Positions 18,684 to 23,953 of a DNA stretch of 64,000 bases are shown in pieces (the stretch's first letter is position 1; each line of letters opens with the position of its first letter). Origin of the DNA: Thiemannella venezuelensis (GTDB taxonomy: Bacteria > Actinomycetota > Actinomycetes > Streptosporangiales > Streptosporangiaceae). Position numbers and translations under genes: made by a program. The notes under the pieces were generated by a model. The model was not told where the DNA came from. It did not search any database and was given only the letters and a program-made list of their open reading frames with translations. Location: assembly GCF_014203605.1 (NCBI RefSeq), contig NZ_JACHJJ010000011.1:124001-188000 (forward strand), in the 5' to 3' direction.

Positions 18684-19445
18684 TCAGGCGGTGGCGGAGC
18701 GCTCGTCCGCCCGCAGGGCCTGCCCGTACCGTTCGAGCAGCACGTCCGCGACCTCCGGAGCCGCGCCGAGCACGTCCGCGACGACCTCGGCGCCCGCGGC
18801 CAGGGCGGCGGCGCGGGTCTTGTCGGCGAAGTAGCCGGGGGCCAGCAGGTAGGGGGCGACCACCACGCGCGGGGCCCCGGCGGCGAGCAGCCGCCGGACC
18901 TCGTCCCCGGGGGCGGGCGCGGCGGCCGAGGCGTAGGCCGCGCTCACCGACCACCAGCCGCGCCGCGCGGCCCACTGCCGGGCGATCCCGGCGACCGTCG
19001 CGTTGGCCCGGTGGTCGCTGGAGCCCGCCGAGAGCAGCACCACGGCGGTCCGCGGGTCCCCGGCGGCCACGCCCGCCTCGGCCAGGCGCCGCTCCAGGGC
19101 GTCGATCAGCAGCGGGTGCGGTCCCAGCGTCGTGCCCCGGTGCACCCGGAGCCGGGGCTGCCGGGCCGCGACCTCGGCCAGCGCGCCGGGGATGTCCACC
19201 CGGCTGTGGTAGGCCTCGGTGAGCAGCAGCGGCAGGACCACCGCCTCGGCCAGCCCGGACAGCGCCCCGGCCAGCGTCGGAGCGGCGTGGTCGAGGTAGG
19301 CGGCGCGGACCGGGAGCCCCGGCAGCGCCAGCCGTACCGTGTCCATCAGGGCCTCCACCGTCGCGGCGGCGCGCGGGTCGCGCGAGCCGTGCGCCACCGC
19401 CACCAGCGGGACCGCCGGTGCCACGGGCGGGAGGGGAAGGCTCAC
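18684..19445 (-). CDS. Sirohydrochlorin chelatase-like protein (CbiX/SirB family)
   Basis: The protein has 253 residues from GTG 19445, whose GTGA overlaps the cysH stop codon by 4 bases and so implies coupled translation. It has two similar halves of the class II chelatase fold: VAVAHGSRDPRAAATVEAL with the metal-binding His near residue 16, then VLPLLLTEAYHSRVD, and in the second half VVLLSAGSSDHRAN and VVVAPYLLAPGYFADKTR. Such enzymes insert Fe2+ into sirohydrochlorin to make siroheme, the cofactor of the sulfite reductase in this operon. That makes ferrochelatase the likely activity. A cobalt chelatase role is less likely. Confidence 0.87.
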   Translation of the reverse strand: MSLPLPPVAPAVPLVAVAHGSRDPRAAATVEALMDTVRLALPGLPVRAAYLDHAAPTLAGALSGLAEAVVLPLLLTEAYHSRVDIPGALAEVAARQPRLRVHRGTTLGPHPLLIDALERRLAEAGVAAGDPRTAVVLLSAGSSDHRANATVAGIARQWAARRGWWSVSAAYASAAAPAPGDEVRRLLAAGAPRVVVAPYLLAPGYFADKTRAAALAAGAEVVADVLGAAPEVADVLLERYGQALRADERSATA

Positions 19446-20170
19446 GTGTGGATGCCGCACTCGGTCTTGCCCATCCCGGCCCAGCGGCCGCTGCGCGGGT
19501 CCTCTCCCGGGGCGACCTGGCGGGTGCAGGGGGCGCAGCCGATCGACGGGTAGTCGTCGTAGTGCAGCGGGTTGATCAGCACGCCGTTGTCGGCCATGTA
19601 GTTGTCGACGTCCTCCTGGGTCCACCGGGCGATGGGGTTGATCTTGACCATCTGCCGCTTGGCGTCCCACTCCACGACCTTGATCCCGGCCCGGGTGGTG
19701 GCCTCGTCGCGGCGGATGCCGGAGACCCAGGCGCGGTACGGCTCCAGCGCGCGGTTGAGCGGCTCCACCTTGCGCAGGTAGCAGCAGAGGTCGGGGTTGC
19801 GCCCGAACAGCCGCGGCCCGAGGTCGCGCTCCTGCTCGGCCACCGTCCGCGACGGCTTGACGTCGATCACGTTGACGTCGTAGACCTGACGGACCGCGTC
19901 CCGCGTGCCGATCGTCTCGGCGAAGTGGTAGCCGGTGTCGATGAAGAGCACGTCCACGCCCGGCTTGACCCTGCTGACCAGGTCGATCATCAGTGCGTCG
20001 CTCATCGAGGCGGTCAGGCAGAGCCGGTCGCCGAAGGTCGCCGCCGCCCAGCGGATGATGTCGACGGCGGAGGCCTCCTCCAGGAACAGCGCGGCCGACT
20101 CGGCGATCTCCTGCAGGTCGAGCGTGCCGCGCTGCTGCCGTAATCCGATTTCGATGTCCACCAGTGTCAT
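19442..20170 (-). CDS. cysH: Adenylylsulfate (APS) reductase, thioredoxin-dependent
   Basis: This 242-residue protein reduces activated sulfate to sulfite. The catalytic cysteine is in the C-terminal ECGIH motif (Cys238). Paired cysteines CC (129-130) and CxxC (212-215, GCAPC) bind a [4Fe-4S] cluster, which marks the APS-using form rather than the PAPS-using form. The nucleotide-binding stretch is LCLTASMSDALMIDL. The start has GAGGAACCG just upstream. It follows the sulfite reductase and a zinc-ribbon gene and is translationally coupled to the chelatase gene downstream. The kinase/sulfurylase genes (cysD, cysN, cysC) are not in the window. Confidence 0.92.
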   Translation of the reverse strand: MTLVDIEIGLRQQRGTLDLQEIAESAALFLEEASAVDIIRWAAATFGDRLCLTASMSDALMIDLVSRVKPGVDVLFIDTGYHFAETIGTRDAVRQVYDVNVIDVKPSRTVAEQERDLGPRLFGRNPDLCCYLRKVEPLNRALEPYRAWVSGIRRDEATTRAGIKVVEWDAKRQMVKINPIARWTQEDVDNYMADNGVLINPLHYDDYPSIGCAPCTRQVAPGEDPRSGRWAGMGKTECGIHT

Positions 20171-20183
20171 CGGTTCCTCACCA

Positions 20184-20338
20184 CTCCTCGTTCGCCGCGC
20201 GGGCCGCTCGTGCCTCGCGGACCGCTCCGCTCACTGCGTCGGGTTCGCTCCCTGACATGGGTCGCTCACCCTCCTCGTTCGCTGCGCGGGCCGCTCGTGC
20301 CTCGCGGACCGCTCCGCTCACTGCGTCGGGTTCGCTCC
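20184..20338. repeat. Two tandem copies of a 68-bp element inside the cys operon
   Basis: Bases 20184-20251 and 20271-20338 are identical except for one base (GCCGCG against GCTGCG), with a 19-base spacer. On the minus strand both copies can be read in frame as a peptide containing SEPDAVSGAVREARAARAAN, but the duplicated copy and intergenic place argue for a non-coding repeat. It separates the zinc-ribbon gene from cysH and may form RNA structure in the operon mRNA. Confidence 0.65.
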
Positions 20339-20341
20339 GGG

Positions 20342-20488
20342 TCATGACGTGCGCACCCCGATCCCCAGAAACTTCAGCTTGAAAGCGCGGGCGCACGAGC
20401 GGCAGTACCAGCCGCCGTCGCCCTCGTACGGCTCCAGGTCCTCTTCACCGCAGTAGGGGCAGTGGAAGGGGACGGCCCTGCCGCTCAC
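20342..20488 (-). CDS. Small zinc-ribbon protein of the sulfite-reductase operon
   Basis: This 48-residue protein starts at GTG 20488, whose GTGA overlaps the sulfite-reductase stop by 4 bases. Two cysteine pairs, HCPYCGEED and WYCRSCARAF (CxxC-x15-CxxC), form a clear zinc ribbon, and the C-terminus is FKLKFLGIGV. Small ORFs of this kind regularly follow the ferredoxin-type sulfite reductase in actinobacteria. Its role is unknown; electron-transfer help or regulation by zinc or thiols are both possible. The tight coupling and the conserved position support a real gene although it is very short. Confidence 0.8.
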   Translation of the reverse strand: MSGRAVPFHCPYCGEEDLEPYEGDGGWYCRSCARAFKLKFLGIGVRTS

Positions 20489-22167
20489 TTGAGGTCCGCC
20501 TCGTCGGCGCGCTGGACCCACTCGGAGAAGGCCTCGCCCTCGTTCTTCTGCTTGCCGAAGTTCCGCAGCACCCGCTCGACGTAGTCGGGGAGCTCGGCGG
20601 CGGTGGCCTTCAGGCCGCGGACCTTGCGGCCGAAGCCGGCGTTGACGCCCAGCGAGCCGCCCAGGTGGATCTGGAAGCCCTCCACCTGCTCGCCCGCCTC
20701 GTTGACGACGAGCTGGCCCTTGAGGCCGATGTCGGCGGTCTGGATGCGCGCGCAGGAGTTGGGGCAGCCGTTGACGTTGATGGTCAGCGGCTCGGCGAAG
20801 TCCGGCAGGCGGGCCTCCAGCTCGTCGATCAGGTGGGACGCGGTGTCCTTGGTGTCGACGATCGCCAGCTTGCAGAACTCGATGCCGGTGCAGGCCATGG
20901 TCTGGCGGCGGAAGGTGGAGGGGTTGACCTGGAGGTCGTTGGCCTCCAGCTCGGCCACCAGGCTCTCCACCCGGTCCGGCGCGACGTCCAGGACGACCAT
21001 CTTCTGCTCGACCGTGGTGTGCACCCGCCCGGAGCCGTGCCGCTCGGCGATGTCGGCGATCAGGTGCAGCTTGTCGCCGTTGAGGCGGCCGACCCGGGGC
21101 GCGAAGCCGACGTAGAAGTTGCCGTCCTTCTGCGGGAAGACGCCCACGTGGTCGCGGCGGCCGCCGCGCGGCGGCTCGGGCGCGGGGCCGTCCGGAAGGG
21201 TGCGGCCGAGGTACTCCTTCTCCAGGACGGCGCGGAACTTCTCGGCTCCCCAGTCGTTGACCAGGAACTTGATCCGCGCCCGGTGGCGCAGGCGGCGGTA
21301 GCCGTAGTCGCGGAAGATGCCGATCACGCCGCCGTAGACCTCGGAGGCCTGCTCCGGGGTGACGAAGACGCCGAGCCGCTTGGCCAGCATCGGGTTGGTC
21401 GACAGGCCGCCGCCGACCCACAGGTCGTAGCCCTTCTCGCCGTGCTCGTTGACGACGCCGACGAAGGCCACGTCGTTGATCTCGTGCACGGTGCAGTGCG
21501 CCGGGCAGCCCGACAGCGCCGACTTGAACTTGCGCGGCAGGTTGGAGTACTCGGGGTTGCCGATGTAGTCGGCGTGGATCCGGTCGATCTCCGCGGTGGC
21601 GTCGACGACCTCCTCGGCGTCGATCCCGGCCAGCGGGCAGCCGATGATGACGCGCGGGGTGTCGCCGCAGGCCTCGGTGGTGGACAGGCCCACCGCCTCC
21701 AGCCGCCGCCAGATGTCCGGGACGGACTCGATCTCGATCCAGTGCAGCTGGATGTTCTGCCGGTCGGTGACGTCGGCGGTGCCGCGGCCGTACTCGTTGG
21801 AGATGTCGGCGATGGTGCGCAGCTGCTCCAGGTTGAGCCGGCCGCCGTCGATCCGGACGCGGAGCATGAAGTAGCGGTCGTCGAGCTCCTCCGGCTCCAG
21901 GACCGCGGTCTTGCCGCCGTCGATCCCGGGCTTGCGCTGGGTGTAGAGCCCGTACCAGCGCATCCGGCCGCGCAGGTCGGCCGGGTCGATGGAGTCGAAC
22001 CCGCCCTTGGAGTAGACGTCGATGATCCGCTGGCGGACGTTGAGCCCGTCGTCGTTCTTCTTGAGCTCTTCGTTCTTGTTCAGCGGCTCGCGGTAGCCGA
22101 GAGCCCACTGACCTTCGCCTCGCGGGCGCTTGTGGTGGCGGTTCGCCGGACGGGCCGGGGTCGTCAT
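20485..22167 (-). CDS. sir: Ferredoxin-dependent sulfite reductase (NirA/Sir type)
   Basis: The protein has 560 residues from ATG 22167; a start 42 bases upstream is possible but less likely. It contains the two ferredoxin-like half-domains and the siroheme/[4Fe-4S] signature CTGIEFC plus CPNSC in its second half. The typical siroheme arginine segments GTADVTDRQNIQLHW and SGCPAHCTVHEINDVAF are present. It reduces sulfite to sulfide with six electrons from ferredoxin. The family includes nitrite reductases, but the cysH and chelatase neighbours and the cysteine leader peptide upstream favour sulfite. It is the first large gene of the operon. Confidence 0.92.
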   Translation of the reverse strand: MTTPARPANRHHKRPRGEGQWALGYREPLNKNEELKKNDDGLNVRQRIIDVYSKGGFDSIDPADLRGRMRWYGLYTQRKPGIDGGKTAVLEPEELDDRYFMLRVRIDGGRLNLEQLRTIADISNEYGRGTADVTDRQNIQLHWIEIESVPDIWRRLEAVGLSTTEACGDTPRVIIGCPLAGIDAEEVVDATAEIDRIHADYIGNPEYSNLPRKFKSALSGCPAHCTVHEINDVAFVGVVNEHGEKGYDLWVGGGLSTNPMLAKRLGVFVTPEQASEVYGGVIGIFRDYGYRRLRHRARIKFLVNDWGAEKFRAVLEKEYLGRTLPDGPAPEPPRGGRRDHVGVFPQKDGNFYVGFAPRVGRLNGDKLHLIADIAERHGSGRVHTTVEQKMVVLDVAPDRVESLVAELEANDLQVNPSTFRRQTMACTGIEFCKLAIVDTKDTASHLIDELEARLPDFAEPLTINVNGCPNSCARIQTADIGLKGQLVVNEAGEQVEGFQIHLGGSLGVNAGFGRKVRGLKATAAELPDYVERVLRNFGKQKNEGEAFSEWVQRADEADLK

Positions 22168-22324
22168 GTGCGCGTCCTTATCGGATCGTTGGATGATTTC
22201 CGGGCACACGCGCAGGCACCTCCCGCCTCGTCGTCGAGTGCGGGGGTCGTCGCTCAGAGAAGGTCACTCGGAGAAGGACGCCTGTCACGCGCCCGAGCTG
22301 GCAGAAGTCAGCGAAGGGCGACGG

Positions 22325-22414
22325 TCAACGGACGTCACAACAGATGGCGCTGCGGACACGCAGGAGGTCGACGTGGCGTCGCACGACGAGCATGGGGTCC
22401 GCTGGCATGTCCAT
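22325..22414 (-). CDS. Cysteine-containing leader peptide of the cys operon
   Basis: This short frame encodes 29 residues from ATG 22414, or 19 from GTG 22384, ending RRHVDLLRVRSAICCDVR. The RRHVDLLRVxSAIC core matches the actinobacterial leader-peptide family found before sulfur-assimilation genes. The adjacent Cys-Cys codons (TGT TGT) sit four and five codons before the stop. By analogy with mycobacterial poly-cysteine leader ORFs, ribosome stalling when Cys-tRNA is scarce would raise downstream sulfite-reductase expression. The gene begins 157 bases before the sulfite-reductase stop-free start region. The function is inferred from family and position. Confidence 0.72.
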   Translation of the reverse strand: MDMPADPMLVVRRHVDLLRVRSAICCDVR

Positions 22415-22541
22415 GACGATACCTTGGCGGCCCGAGATGTCCAATATTAGGTCCACACTCTGGACGGCGGGCCGTCCTCCGGGCAGCGGCCGGTCCCGGC
22501 CCGGCGGGAGCGGGCCGGACGAGGTCCGGGCCGGGCGCCGT

Positions 22542-22670
22542 TCAGCCCTGGCGGGGCCAGACGAGGGGCGACTCCCGGGGCTCCGGTTCGGCGCCCTGGT
22601 GCTGGCAGTCGCACCACGACCCGCCCCGGCACTCCTCGTGGCGGCGGTCCTTGCACTGCTGGCAGATCAT
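22542..22670 (-). CDS. 42-residue cysteine-rich small protein
   Basis: The sequence begins MICQQCKDRRHEECRGGSWC and continues DCQHQ, giving five cysteines and two histidines within the first 25 residues, a layout able to bind zinc or another metal. The tail is acidic/Pro-rich. I recognise it as a recurrent small actinobacterial protein without known function. It is divergent from the YihY gene (165-base gap) and downstream of nothing co-oriented. Codon choice agrees with its neighbours. Confidence 0.6.
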   Translation of the reverse strand: MICQQCKDRRHEECRGGSWCDCQHQGAEPEPRESPLVWPRQG

Positions 22671-22835: not shown

Positions 22836-23837
22836 ATGACGTCCAGTGAGGTCCCTGCCAAGCGGTCCGGGCCCGGCAAGCGCCCGCGACGCTGGGCGCA
22901 CTCCCGGCTGCGCAGGCACAGCGCCCGGCTCCGGACCGGGCTGACGTGGGTGCGGGGCACCGGCACCTGGACGCTGGTCTCCGCCACCGTCAACGCCGGC
23001 GTCACCTACCGGGTCACCGGCCTGGCCGGGGAGGCGGCCTTCTTCGCGCTGCTCTCGCTGCCGCCGTTCGTGCTCGGCCTGATCGGCGTGGTCGGCCAGC
23101 TCACCGGCGTCTTCGGCCCGGAGACCGTGCAGGACGTCAGCGCCTGGATCGAGGCGCAGGCGCACCTGCTGTTCACCGACAACGCCGTGGACACCGTCGT
23201 CACCCCGCTCATCGGCGACGTGCTGAACCCGGCGAACCAGGTCTCGCTGATCTCGCTGGGCTTCCTGCTCGCGCTCTGGTCGGGTTCGCGGGCGCTGTTC
23301 GTCTACGTGGACCTGATCGCCCTGGCCTACGGGCTCGGCGAGGAGCGCGGCATCATCCGCACCCGCCTGATGTCCTTCGGGCTCTACCTCGCGGGCCTGC
23401 TGAGCGGCCTGTTCGTCATGCCGGTCCTGGTGCTGGGCCCGGCGGCGCTGCAGGGCGCGCTCCCGCCCGACTACACCGTGCTGGTGGACGTCCTCTACTG
23501 GCCGGTGGTCGTCGTCGGCTCCGTCTTCTTCCTCACGCTGCTCTACCACGTGAGCGTCCCGGTGCGGACGCGCTGGTGGCGGGAGATGCCCGGGGCCGTG
23601 CTCGCGCTCATCATCTGGATCGCCTGCGCCGCGGTGCTGCGCGAGGTCCTGGCGGCGTGGTTCTCGCCGGTCTCCATCTACGGCTCGCTGGCCGCTCCCG
23701 TCGCGGTGCTGCTCTGGCTCTACATCACCGCCCTCGCCGTGCTCATCGGCGCCATCCTCAACGCCGAGGTGGACCGGCTCTGGCCGGCGAACGGCACAGG
23801 GCGGGTCGGCCGATCGGGCGAGTCCGCTATCGTCTAA
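22836..23837 (+). CDS. YihY/BrkB-family inner-membrane protein
   Basis: This 333-residue protein has a basic N-terminus (PGKRPRRWAHSRLRRH) and about six membrane helices. Family hallmarks are the early GLAGEAAFFALLSLPPFVLG, the central LGFLLALWSGSRALFVYVDLI and the late SIYGSLAAPVAVLLWLYITA. YihY proteins were once called ribonuclease BN but are membrane proteins of uncertain transport or envelope role. ATG 22836 has no strong ribosome site. The 3' end overlaps the first bases of the ZTP riboswitch of glyA. Confidence 0.87.
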   Translation: MTSSEVPAKRSGPGKRPRRWAHSRLRRHSARLRTGLTWVRGTGTWTLVSATVNAGVTYRVTGLAGEAAFFALLSLPPFVLGLIGVVGQLTGVFGPETVQDVSAWIEAQAHLLFTDNAVDTVVTPLIGDVLNPANQVSLISLGFLLALWSGSRALFVYVDLIALAYGLGEERGIIRTRLMSFGLYLAGLLSGLFVMPVLVLGPAALQGALPPDYTVLVDVLYWPVVVVGSVFFLTLLYHVSVPVRTRWWREMPGAVLALIIWIACAAVLREVLAAWFSPVSIYGSLAAPVAVLLWLYITALAVLIGAILNAEVDRLWPANGTGRVGRSGESAIV

Positions 23838-23907
23838 GCCGCGACTGGCGCATTGGGTGGGACAACCACCGGGGAGCGGAATGGCGGAGGCCGCGCGCCT
23901 GGGTCTT
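23834..23907 (+). promoter_or_regulatory. ZTP (pfl-motif) riboswitch controlling glyA
   Basis: The RNA shows the conserved blocks of the pfl motif in order: GCCGCGACTGGCG near 23838, a short stem GGTGGGACAACCACC, then CCGGGGAGCG, and a 3' pseudoknot partner CCGCGCGCCTGGGT (23890-23904). It ends about 50 bases before glyA. ZTP/ZMP accumulates when 10-formyl-tetrahydrofolate is short, and this riboswitch class turns on folate one-carbon genes such as glyA. Confidence 0.85.
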
Positions 23908-23953
23908 CGTCCGTTGTCAACGAATGTCAACGATGACAGGGAGTGAAGGCGCC

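Follow-up and report, generated by a model that had tools for sequence, protein, structure and literature searches.

In translational attenuation of the erm type, a ribosome stalled on the first of four RNA segments lets the second pair with the third, which frees the Shine-Dalgarno sequence in the fourth. The leader described here is unrelated in sequence to the erm leaders, and its proposed signal is an amino acid rather than an antibiotic. For mycobacteria, the abstract of a study of cysteine leaders reportedly describes stalled ribosomes that block an mRNA structure sequestering the ribosome-binding site. According to the available parts of three papers (PMC9031893, PMC9094748, PMC13236596), Canestrari et al. 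2020 demonstrated that poly-Cys leaders in M. smegmatis exert control in response to cysteine, and the last of the three terms this control translation attenuation. Seliverstov et al. 2005 (PMC1262725), in the accessible portion of their survey, describe runs of Cys codons in leaders of Mycobacterium, P. acnes and B. longum, without conserved hairpins and with a mode of regulation given as unknown.

The locus considered here lies in a window, by which we mean the whole stretch of 64,000 nucleotides of Thiemannella venezuelensis DNA that was analysed. Its leader shares with those in the accessible portion of the 2005 survey a short ORF, Cys codons near the stop and a place before cys operons of Actinobacteria; it differs from them in its one conserved Cys codon and its conserved hairpins, and in occurring in other families. 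The uORFC-8-2 motif, a leader of cysS in Rhodobacterales, likewise joins an upstream ORF with Cys codons to a hairpin at those codons, but, as described in the available part of PMC8632094, it has tandem Cys codons with UGC dominant, an intrinsic terminator and cysS as its gene. On balance we consider it probable that the leader in the window is a cysteine-responsive, ribosome-mediated attenuator that acts mainly on translation of sirA, the sulfite reductase gene behind it.

The leader and the operon behind it

The leader and its operon consist of the following features:
22325..22408, minus strand: leader ORF MPADPMLVVRRHVDLLRVRSAICCDVR, from ATG 22408-22406 to stop TGA 22327-22325 (sequence, family match, conservation)
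20485..22167, minus strand: sulfite reductase "sirA", 560 aa (NIR_SIR and NIR_SIR_ferr domains)
19442..20170, minus strand: cysH, phosphoadenylyl-sulfate (PAPS) reductase (domain and family search)
18684..19670, minus strand: CbiX-domain protein, likely a sirohydrochlorin chelatase (PF01903 above cut-off)

An earlier note on this DNA had described an ORF with tandem Cys codons near its stop, about 160 bases before a sulfate-assimilation operon, and had read it as a cysteine attenuator leader. Indeed the ORF ends in RRHVDLLRVRSAICCDVR, its tandem TGT TGT lies at 22342-22337 on the minus strand ahead of the stop at 22327-22325, and this stop stands 157 nt before the sulfite reductase start, ATG 22167, which follows AAGGA. 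The broader claim, that a cysteine attenuator leader precedes sulfite reductase, also has good support: the peptide matches a leader family, its place before the gene and its sequence are conserved, and it resembles poly-Cys leaders of the mycobacterial type that precede the same gene.

The leader peptide matches NCBIfam NF042934 (cis_reg_atten, putative leader peptide) with 31.6 bits against a curated cut-off of 27 and an E-value of 2.4e-6 in a search of its own genome. The match covers positions 1-19 of the model's 19, and the model scores the peptide only, not UGU constancy or RNA layout. Two further models leave the leader below membership: NF042936 (Ms4527A, mycobacterial poly-Cys) with a score of 19.6 and NF042933 (Ms5788A) with 16.0, each against a cut-off of 45. 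Pfam gave no match to the peptide at E up to 10. Rfam at gathering score gave none at the leader, the sole match in the window being a ZMP/ZTP riboswitch at 23831-23911, and a search of 22120-22520 at E up to 10 returned a single miRNA model, whose score fell well short of the gathering score. The riboswitch (plus strand, 55.2 bits) precedes a serine hydroxymethyltransferase gene (PF00464), which is an ordinary pairing.

Because NF042934 finds a match in 147 of 150 genomes drawn from the order, above the cut-off in 146, this type of leader is already known and widespread. The genome of the window itself holds three more candidates, two above the NF042934 cut-off and one just below it (25.3 bits). 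They precede, respectively, a gene for a DUF4395 protein followed by a rhodanese, a subunit of a 2-oxoacid:ferredoxin oxidoreductase (POR domains) and, the weakest, an SDF-family symporter. The oxidoreductase subunit is part of an Fe-S enzyme of carbon metabolism; its leader stands about 200 nt before the gene (L003, gene from about 1784, reversed orientation), and leaders before similar oxidoreductase genes were seen by eye in other genomes.

Directly downstream of the leader in the window lies a cysteine-metabolism operon of sulfite reductase, cysH and the CbiX-domain gene. The name sirA was assigned from domains and neighbourhood, and no NCBIfam equivalog model scored above its cut-off for this gene; the NCBIfam chelatase models likewise stayed below theirs for the CbiX-domain protein. 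Between sulfite reductase and cysH lies a 72-aa ORF (20178-20396, minus strand) with neither a Pfam match nor an NCBIfam match above cut-off.

The comparison set consists of the window and 80 loci kept, out of 550 confirmed places, from a search with the sulfite reductase. The loci were sorted, by our own grouping from sequence and record title, into a Streptosporangiaceae group (46), an Actinomadura group (11) and a Streptomyces group (23). The sulfite reductase of the window is 69-93% identical (best segment) to those of the 80 fetched loci, and by this gene the closest genome is Planobispora, with 93% identity to Planobispora loci. A leader stands upstream of sulfite reductase in 80 of the 81 loci. 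The exception, L077, has a truncated contig that begins inside the gene and was left out of the leader counts; it is also the sole locus missed by the leader search pattern, which demanded D, R and C. From leader stop to the start of the matched gene the 80 leaders leave 106-249 nt. Judged by such comparison of sequences, the leader ORF is more than chance, and it is a real, conserved cysteine leader of known actinobacterial kind.

Two further elements lie upstream of the leader:
22416..22444, minus strand: likely promoter TTGGAC (22444-22439), 17 nt, TATCGT (22421-22416) (sequence and conserved TGGAC)
22451..22465, minus strand: GTCC-N7-GGAC inverted repeat, candidate operator upstream of the leader promoter

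The leader start at ATG 22408 is kept in all 46 loci of the Streptosporangiaceae group. GTG 22456 and ATG 22414 were considered as starts and rejected: conservation begins only at ATG 22408, and a Met stands at the position of 22414 in 4 of 80 leaders. Seven nucleotides separate the putative -10 element from this ATG, and the interval between a TGGAC and the leader start is 34-36 nt in 79 of 80 loci, so that the distance from promoter to start is near-fixed; this possibly reflects a leaderless start, which such a distance would fit without proving it. A promoter scan gave one promoter-like site here, in an overlapping register, against a mean of 0.0 in shuffled sequences. The inverted repeat, which may be a regulator site of sulfur assimilation, recurs as GTCC-N(6-8)-GGA[CT] in 64 of 80 loci, with GTCC beginning 55-58 nt before the leader start. 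A 42-aa Cys-rich ORF (MICQQCKDRRHEECRGG...) lies upstream of the leader promoter at 22542-22670 on the minus strand and has no Pfam match at E up to 0.001.

The proposed sensor codon and the peptide before it

The two Cys codons of the window differ in their conservation:
22340..22342, minus strand: TGT, invariant sensor Cys codon (TGT in 80 of 80 sirA leaders)
22337..22339, minus strand: TGT, second Cys codon, not conserved (Cys in 18 of 80 loci)

The proposal that the tandem Cys codons form the sensor is therefore not supported. The residue after the invariant Cys is variable: in the Streptosporangiaceae group it is Cys in 18 of 46 leaders, Ile in 15 and one of six other residues in the remaining 13, while the 11 Actinomadura-group leaders have Arg or Leu and the 23 Streptomyces-group leaders Pro, Gln or Arg, a second Cys thus occurring in none of either group. 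The first Cys is invariant and always encoded by TGT, a codon that accounts for 23 of 599 Cys codons (3.8%) in the adjacent sulfite reductase genes.

This constancy extends beyond the sulfite reductase leaders. In 42 further loci a pattern found the motif in 35 (none in L123, L125, L128, L131, L135, L138 and L139), and all 28 distinct cores among the 35, with several downstream genes and the mycobacterial type included, have TGT at the sensor site; some of these 35 are leaders before sulfite reductase and perhaps close to the 80. TGT also occupies this site in the other three leaders of the window's genome. An earlier Cys site of the further loci (DLC) is TGC in 8 and TGT in 1. The codon before the sensor Cys changes among ATC, ATG, CTC and CTG, which makes a fixed RNA word improbable as the cause of the TGT constancy. 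Elsewhere in these leaders third positions are variable; the loci are related and do not count as independent trials.

The mycobacterial poly-Cys leaders of NF042936 have a core in common with the window leader, RRHVD[LFY]xRV, with UGU at the same site and sulfite reductase behind. In other genomes of the class they read RRHVDFKRVCSCCCLP or close variants (L129, L130, L132-L134 and L136 above the cut-off, L137 below); the one from L129 scores 57 against the cut-off of 45. Behind the leader, these seven loci have a reading 53-59% identical to the sulfite reductase of the window over 402-464 residues. The window's RRHVDLLRVRSAIC aligns with them in such a way that its invariant Cys corresponds to their last Cys. 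They have RVC[ST][CA]CC, with three or four Cys codons, whereas the window has RVRSAIC, with one conserved Cys. A run of several Cys codons, the mark of the mycobacterial polycysteine leaders, is absent: the window has two Cys codons, of which one is conserved across the 80 loci.

The peptide before the sensor codon is itself conserved. None of the 80 leaders departs from the first R, H, V, D, the third R, A or C of the core RRHVDLxRxxSAxC; 78 have its second R and 79 its S. The codons carry many synonymous changes, which indicates that it is the peptide that is kept. For the 13 codons that precede the Cys, comparisons inside a group give pN/pS values of 0.12 (Streptosporangiaceae), 0.15 (Actinomadura) and 0.19 (Streptomyces), and comparison of the first two groups with each other gives 0.14. 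It may be, then, that the nascent peptide RRHVDLxRxxSAxC slows the ribosome at the single UGU, so that one Cys codon suffices and the supply of cysteine, or a related small molecule, sets the arrest. This reading is compatible with the attenuator and would fit the near-invariant core, the single conserved Cys and the retention of the motif before different genes, but several points weigh against it. Base pairing with the Shine-Dalgarno region may keep part of the leader coding sequence constant at the RNA level. The mycobacterial-type leaders place three or four Cys codons in the same motif, as a plain codon-counting attenuator would. Against Streptomyces, pN/pS rises to 0.42-0.44. The search pattern demanded D, R and C of every leader, though it missed no locus save the truncated one. 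We regard such peptide-assisted arrest as a tentative idea, to be held with some doubt.

Hairpins and competing pairings in the spacer

The spacer between the Cys codons and sirA holds these elements:
22331..22336, minus strand: segment 1, GACGTC, which follows the Cys codons immediately and forms the 5' arm of hairpin H1
22277..22294, minus strand: segment 2, GGGCGCGTGACAGGCGTC, 3' part of H1, followed by CTTCTCC with no clean T-run (folding, pairing)
22218..22247, minus strand: hairpin H2 (CCCCCGC-A-CTCG / CGAGGCGGG-AGG), which covaries in relatives
22201..22217, minus strand: segment 3, GCCTGCGCGTGTGCCCG, potentially pairing with segment 2 or the Shine-Dalgarno region
22165..22179, minus strand: segment 4, AAGGACGCGCACATG, Shine-Dalgarno sequence and start codon of sulfite reductase (folding, pairing)

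In the attenuator that we propose, the transcript would start at or near the leader ATG. When Cys-tRNA is scarce, a ribosome translating the leader would stall at the invariant UGU and cover segment 1, a few nucleotides downstream, and so block hairpin 1:2; the free segment 2 would then pair with segment 3, which otherwise would cover the Shine-Dalgarno sequence and start codon (3:4), and the operon would be translated. With plentiful cysteine the ribosome would finish and leave, 1:2 and 3:4 would form, and sirA-cysH would be turned down.

In the window the H1 stem joins GACGTC (22336-22331) to GGCGTC (22282-22277). When the 95 nt after the Cys codon are folded, a stem opens within 4 nt of that codon in 79 of 80 loci and within 7 nt in L070; it is a two-pair stem in L072 and closes more than 80 nt away in L064, L070, L078 and L095. 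In 44 of 46 Streptosporangiaceae-group loci GACGYC forms the leader codons after the Cys, and in eight loci with shorter leaders (L045, L063-L065, L067-L069, L071) these letters fall on the stop codon and the CGCC behind it (TGACGCC). Segment 1 thus looks like an RNA feature, since the word outlives the reading frame. The Streptomyces group has another sequence at this place (CCGGCG and variants) and a hairpin that is usually shorter. H1 is no stabler than shuffled sequence: in the window its z is -0.91, with 58 of 200 shuffles as stable, and the group means are -0.86, -0.88 and -0.08.

RNAalifold on alignment A1 (36 sequences, built without structure, the ten Nonomuraea loci being placed in A2 instead) gave a consensus with hairpins H1 and H2 (22247-22218) and a third that covers the Shine-Dalgarno sequence. 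In A1 91.6% of cells pair. Changes on both sides of a pair affect 48 cells (shuffles: 20.3, none of 500 reaching 48); the covariation score is 0.169, compared with 0.123 for shuffles and 0.024-0.089 for slid partners. Two measures are weaker: 9 pairs have changed on both sides (shuffles: 6.3, with 24 of 500 reaching 9), and there are 31 further pair types (shuffles: 29.9, with 155 of 500 reaching 31). All these counts were made on the alignment from which the structure was derived, which favours the structure. The Nonomuraea alignment A2 gave the same three hairpins, and A4 (Streptomyces) gave H1, another hairpin and GUCC:GGAC over the Shine-Dalgarno sequence; by this method H1 was not obtained from A3 (Actinomadura, with L070 and L072 omitted).

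The competing pairings can be judged by their energies, which in the window are -25.4 kcal/mol for the 2:3 duplex and -12.8 for the Shine-Dalgarno region with segment 3. Against shuffled spacers, a locus's own 2:3 pairing wins in 39 of 46 Streptosporangiaceae-group, 10 of 11 Actinomadura-group and 14 of 23 Streptomyces-group loci, and its own 3:4 in 41 of 46, 9 of 11 and 8 of 23. When partners were exchanged across genera (L064, L068, L070 and L072 omitted), own 2:3 was better in 9/10 Planobispora/Streptosporangium, 11/11 Microbispora/Planotetraspora, 8/10 other Streptosporangiaceae and 7/8 Actinomadura loci, 35 of 39 together, and failed in Nonomuraea (1/10), Herbidospora (0/4) and Streptomyces (4/23). 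Own 3:4 was better in 9/10, 6/11, 10/10 and 8/8 of the same four groups and in Herbidospora (4/4), and failed in Nonomuraea (0/10), Streptomyces (6/23) and about half of the Microbispora/Planotetraspora loci. In the window's own genus group each of the two pairings thus beats its cross-genus partners in 9 of 10 loci, while Streptomyces has an H1-like hairpin but lacks support for 2:3 and 3:4. Swaps within the Streptosporangiaceae group carry little information, many segments being alike (the own partner wins for 2:3 in 24 and for 3:4 in 20 of the 46 loci). Pairs of 2:3 that have changed and yet are kept occur in L024, L028, L036, L054 and L067, for example CAGACGU:ACGUCUG in L024, CCUGGCG:CGCCAGG in L036 and CAGGU:ACCUG in L054.

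Two results of this kind were put aside. Own 1:2 beats cross-genus partners in 72 of 76 loci, which is discounted, as segment 2 was placed by its 1:2 pairing. A long-range pairing of the leader with the Shine-Dalgarno region (GCGUGUCC with GGACGCGC, in the Planobispora/Streptosporangium fold) was dropped, as the Herbidospora Shine-Dalgarno region differs (GGAAAGGTCCC).

With segment 1 masked, the Shine-Dalgarno region becomes easier to open, by a mean of 0.75 kcal/mol in the 46 Streptosporangiaceae-group loci (a gain of over 1 in 18 loci, a loss of over 1 in 5) and of 1.04 in the 11 Actinomadura-group loci (p 0.07); in the 23 Streptomyces-group loci the opening cost changes by +0.08. In the window itself opening is not eased (4.42 to 4.74 kcal/mol), and a ribosome block slid along the transcript gave no peak specific to the Cys codon. 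Because equilibrium folding ignores co-transcriptional order, these energy tests neither prove nor refute the switch. The alternative stems that the earlier note had suggested looking for in the spacer are thus present, but no clean switch emerges for the window from the energy calculations. How well the RNA switch is supported depends on the group: well among relatives of the window, poorly in Streptomyces. The loci in the pairing and covariation counts are related, so that these counts are not independent. The weak 3:4 swaps and the two weak covariation measures led us to give the attenuator slightly less weight.

The same hairpin can be read as a signal for transcription. H1 would then be an intrinsic terminator with its 5' arm just after the Cys codon, and a stalled ribosome would occlude the arm and cause read-through. 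The 10 nt that follow H1 are rich in T in the Streptosporangiaceae group (51%, compared with 18% for the spacer), and at least 5 T stand there in 28 of 46 loci, as in AGGCGTCTTTTTC; the symporter leader of the window's own genome (L004, 25.3 bits; 1519-1660, reversed orientation) has arms GCATGCC/GGCATGC followed by TTTTT. The window has 3 T at this place (CTTCTCCGAG), however, and a terminator pattern scan gave no terminator-like site in the window; outside the Streptosporangiaceae group at least 5 T follow H1 in only 3 of 34 loci, and a terminator would leave the Shine-Dalgarno hairpin unexplained. We therefore find termination an unlikely account overall: it may contribute in the relatives with a T-run, and for the window control at the Shine-Dalgarno sequence is favoured. 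At the symporter gene, the leader's own arms and T-run suggest transcription attenuation, perhaps of the uptake of a sulfur compound.

Rho-dependent control, in which the ribosome, whether moving or stalled, would keep Rho off the spacer and dedicated alternative hairpins would be dispensable, was proposed as one possibility for mycobacterial cys leaders without conserved hairpins (Seliverstov et al. 2005, PMC1262725, in its accessible portion); here conserved hairpins with some covariation exist, and this route seems quite improbable. That the ORF encodes a trans-acting small protein, or arose by chance, is scarcely credible in spite of its strong amino-acid conservation, for in 80 of 81 loci it immediately precedes the gene, at a near-fixed distance from its promoter, a hairpin overlaps or abuts its end, and its C-terminal end is variable and, in several genera, truncated.

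A possible role of codon identity in the control of sulfur assimilation

The attenuator favoured here departs from the published poly-Cys picture in a single invariant UGU, a conserved preceding peptide and a conserved RNA layout; the switch itself is inferred. In the open-licence literature searched, as far as its available text goes, we met neither the UGU constancy nor this RNA layout. We speculate, as a possibility that is rather less than probable, that outside mycobacteria the leader is a single-codon sensor, in which an obligatory wobble-read UGU, the peptide RRHVDLxRxxSAxC that makes the ribosome linger and a four-segment RNA that decides access to the Shine-Dalgarno sequence would act together. 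Such a sensor would respond to the identity of the codon and not just to the cysteine content, and the poly-Cys leaders of mycobacteria would be a derived amplification.

Attenuator parts that were reported missing in the species of the 2005 survey (PMC1262725, accessible portion) have visible candidates in the window's relatives. The RNA layout gives a testable scheme for a possible control of sulfur assimilation by the ribosome, and the invariant UGU, standing beside genes in which UGU is rare, points to the identity of a synonymous codon as part of the sensor.
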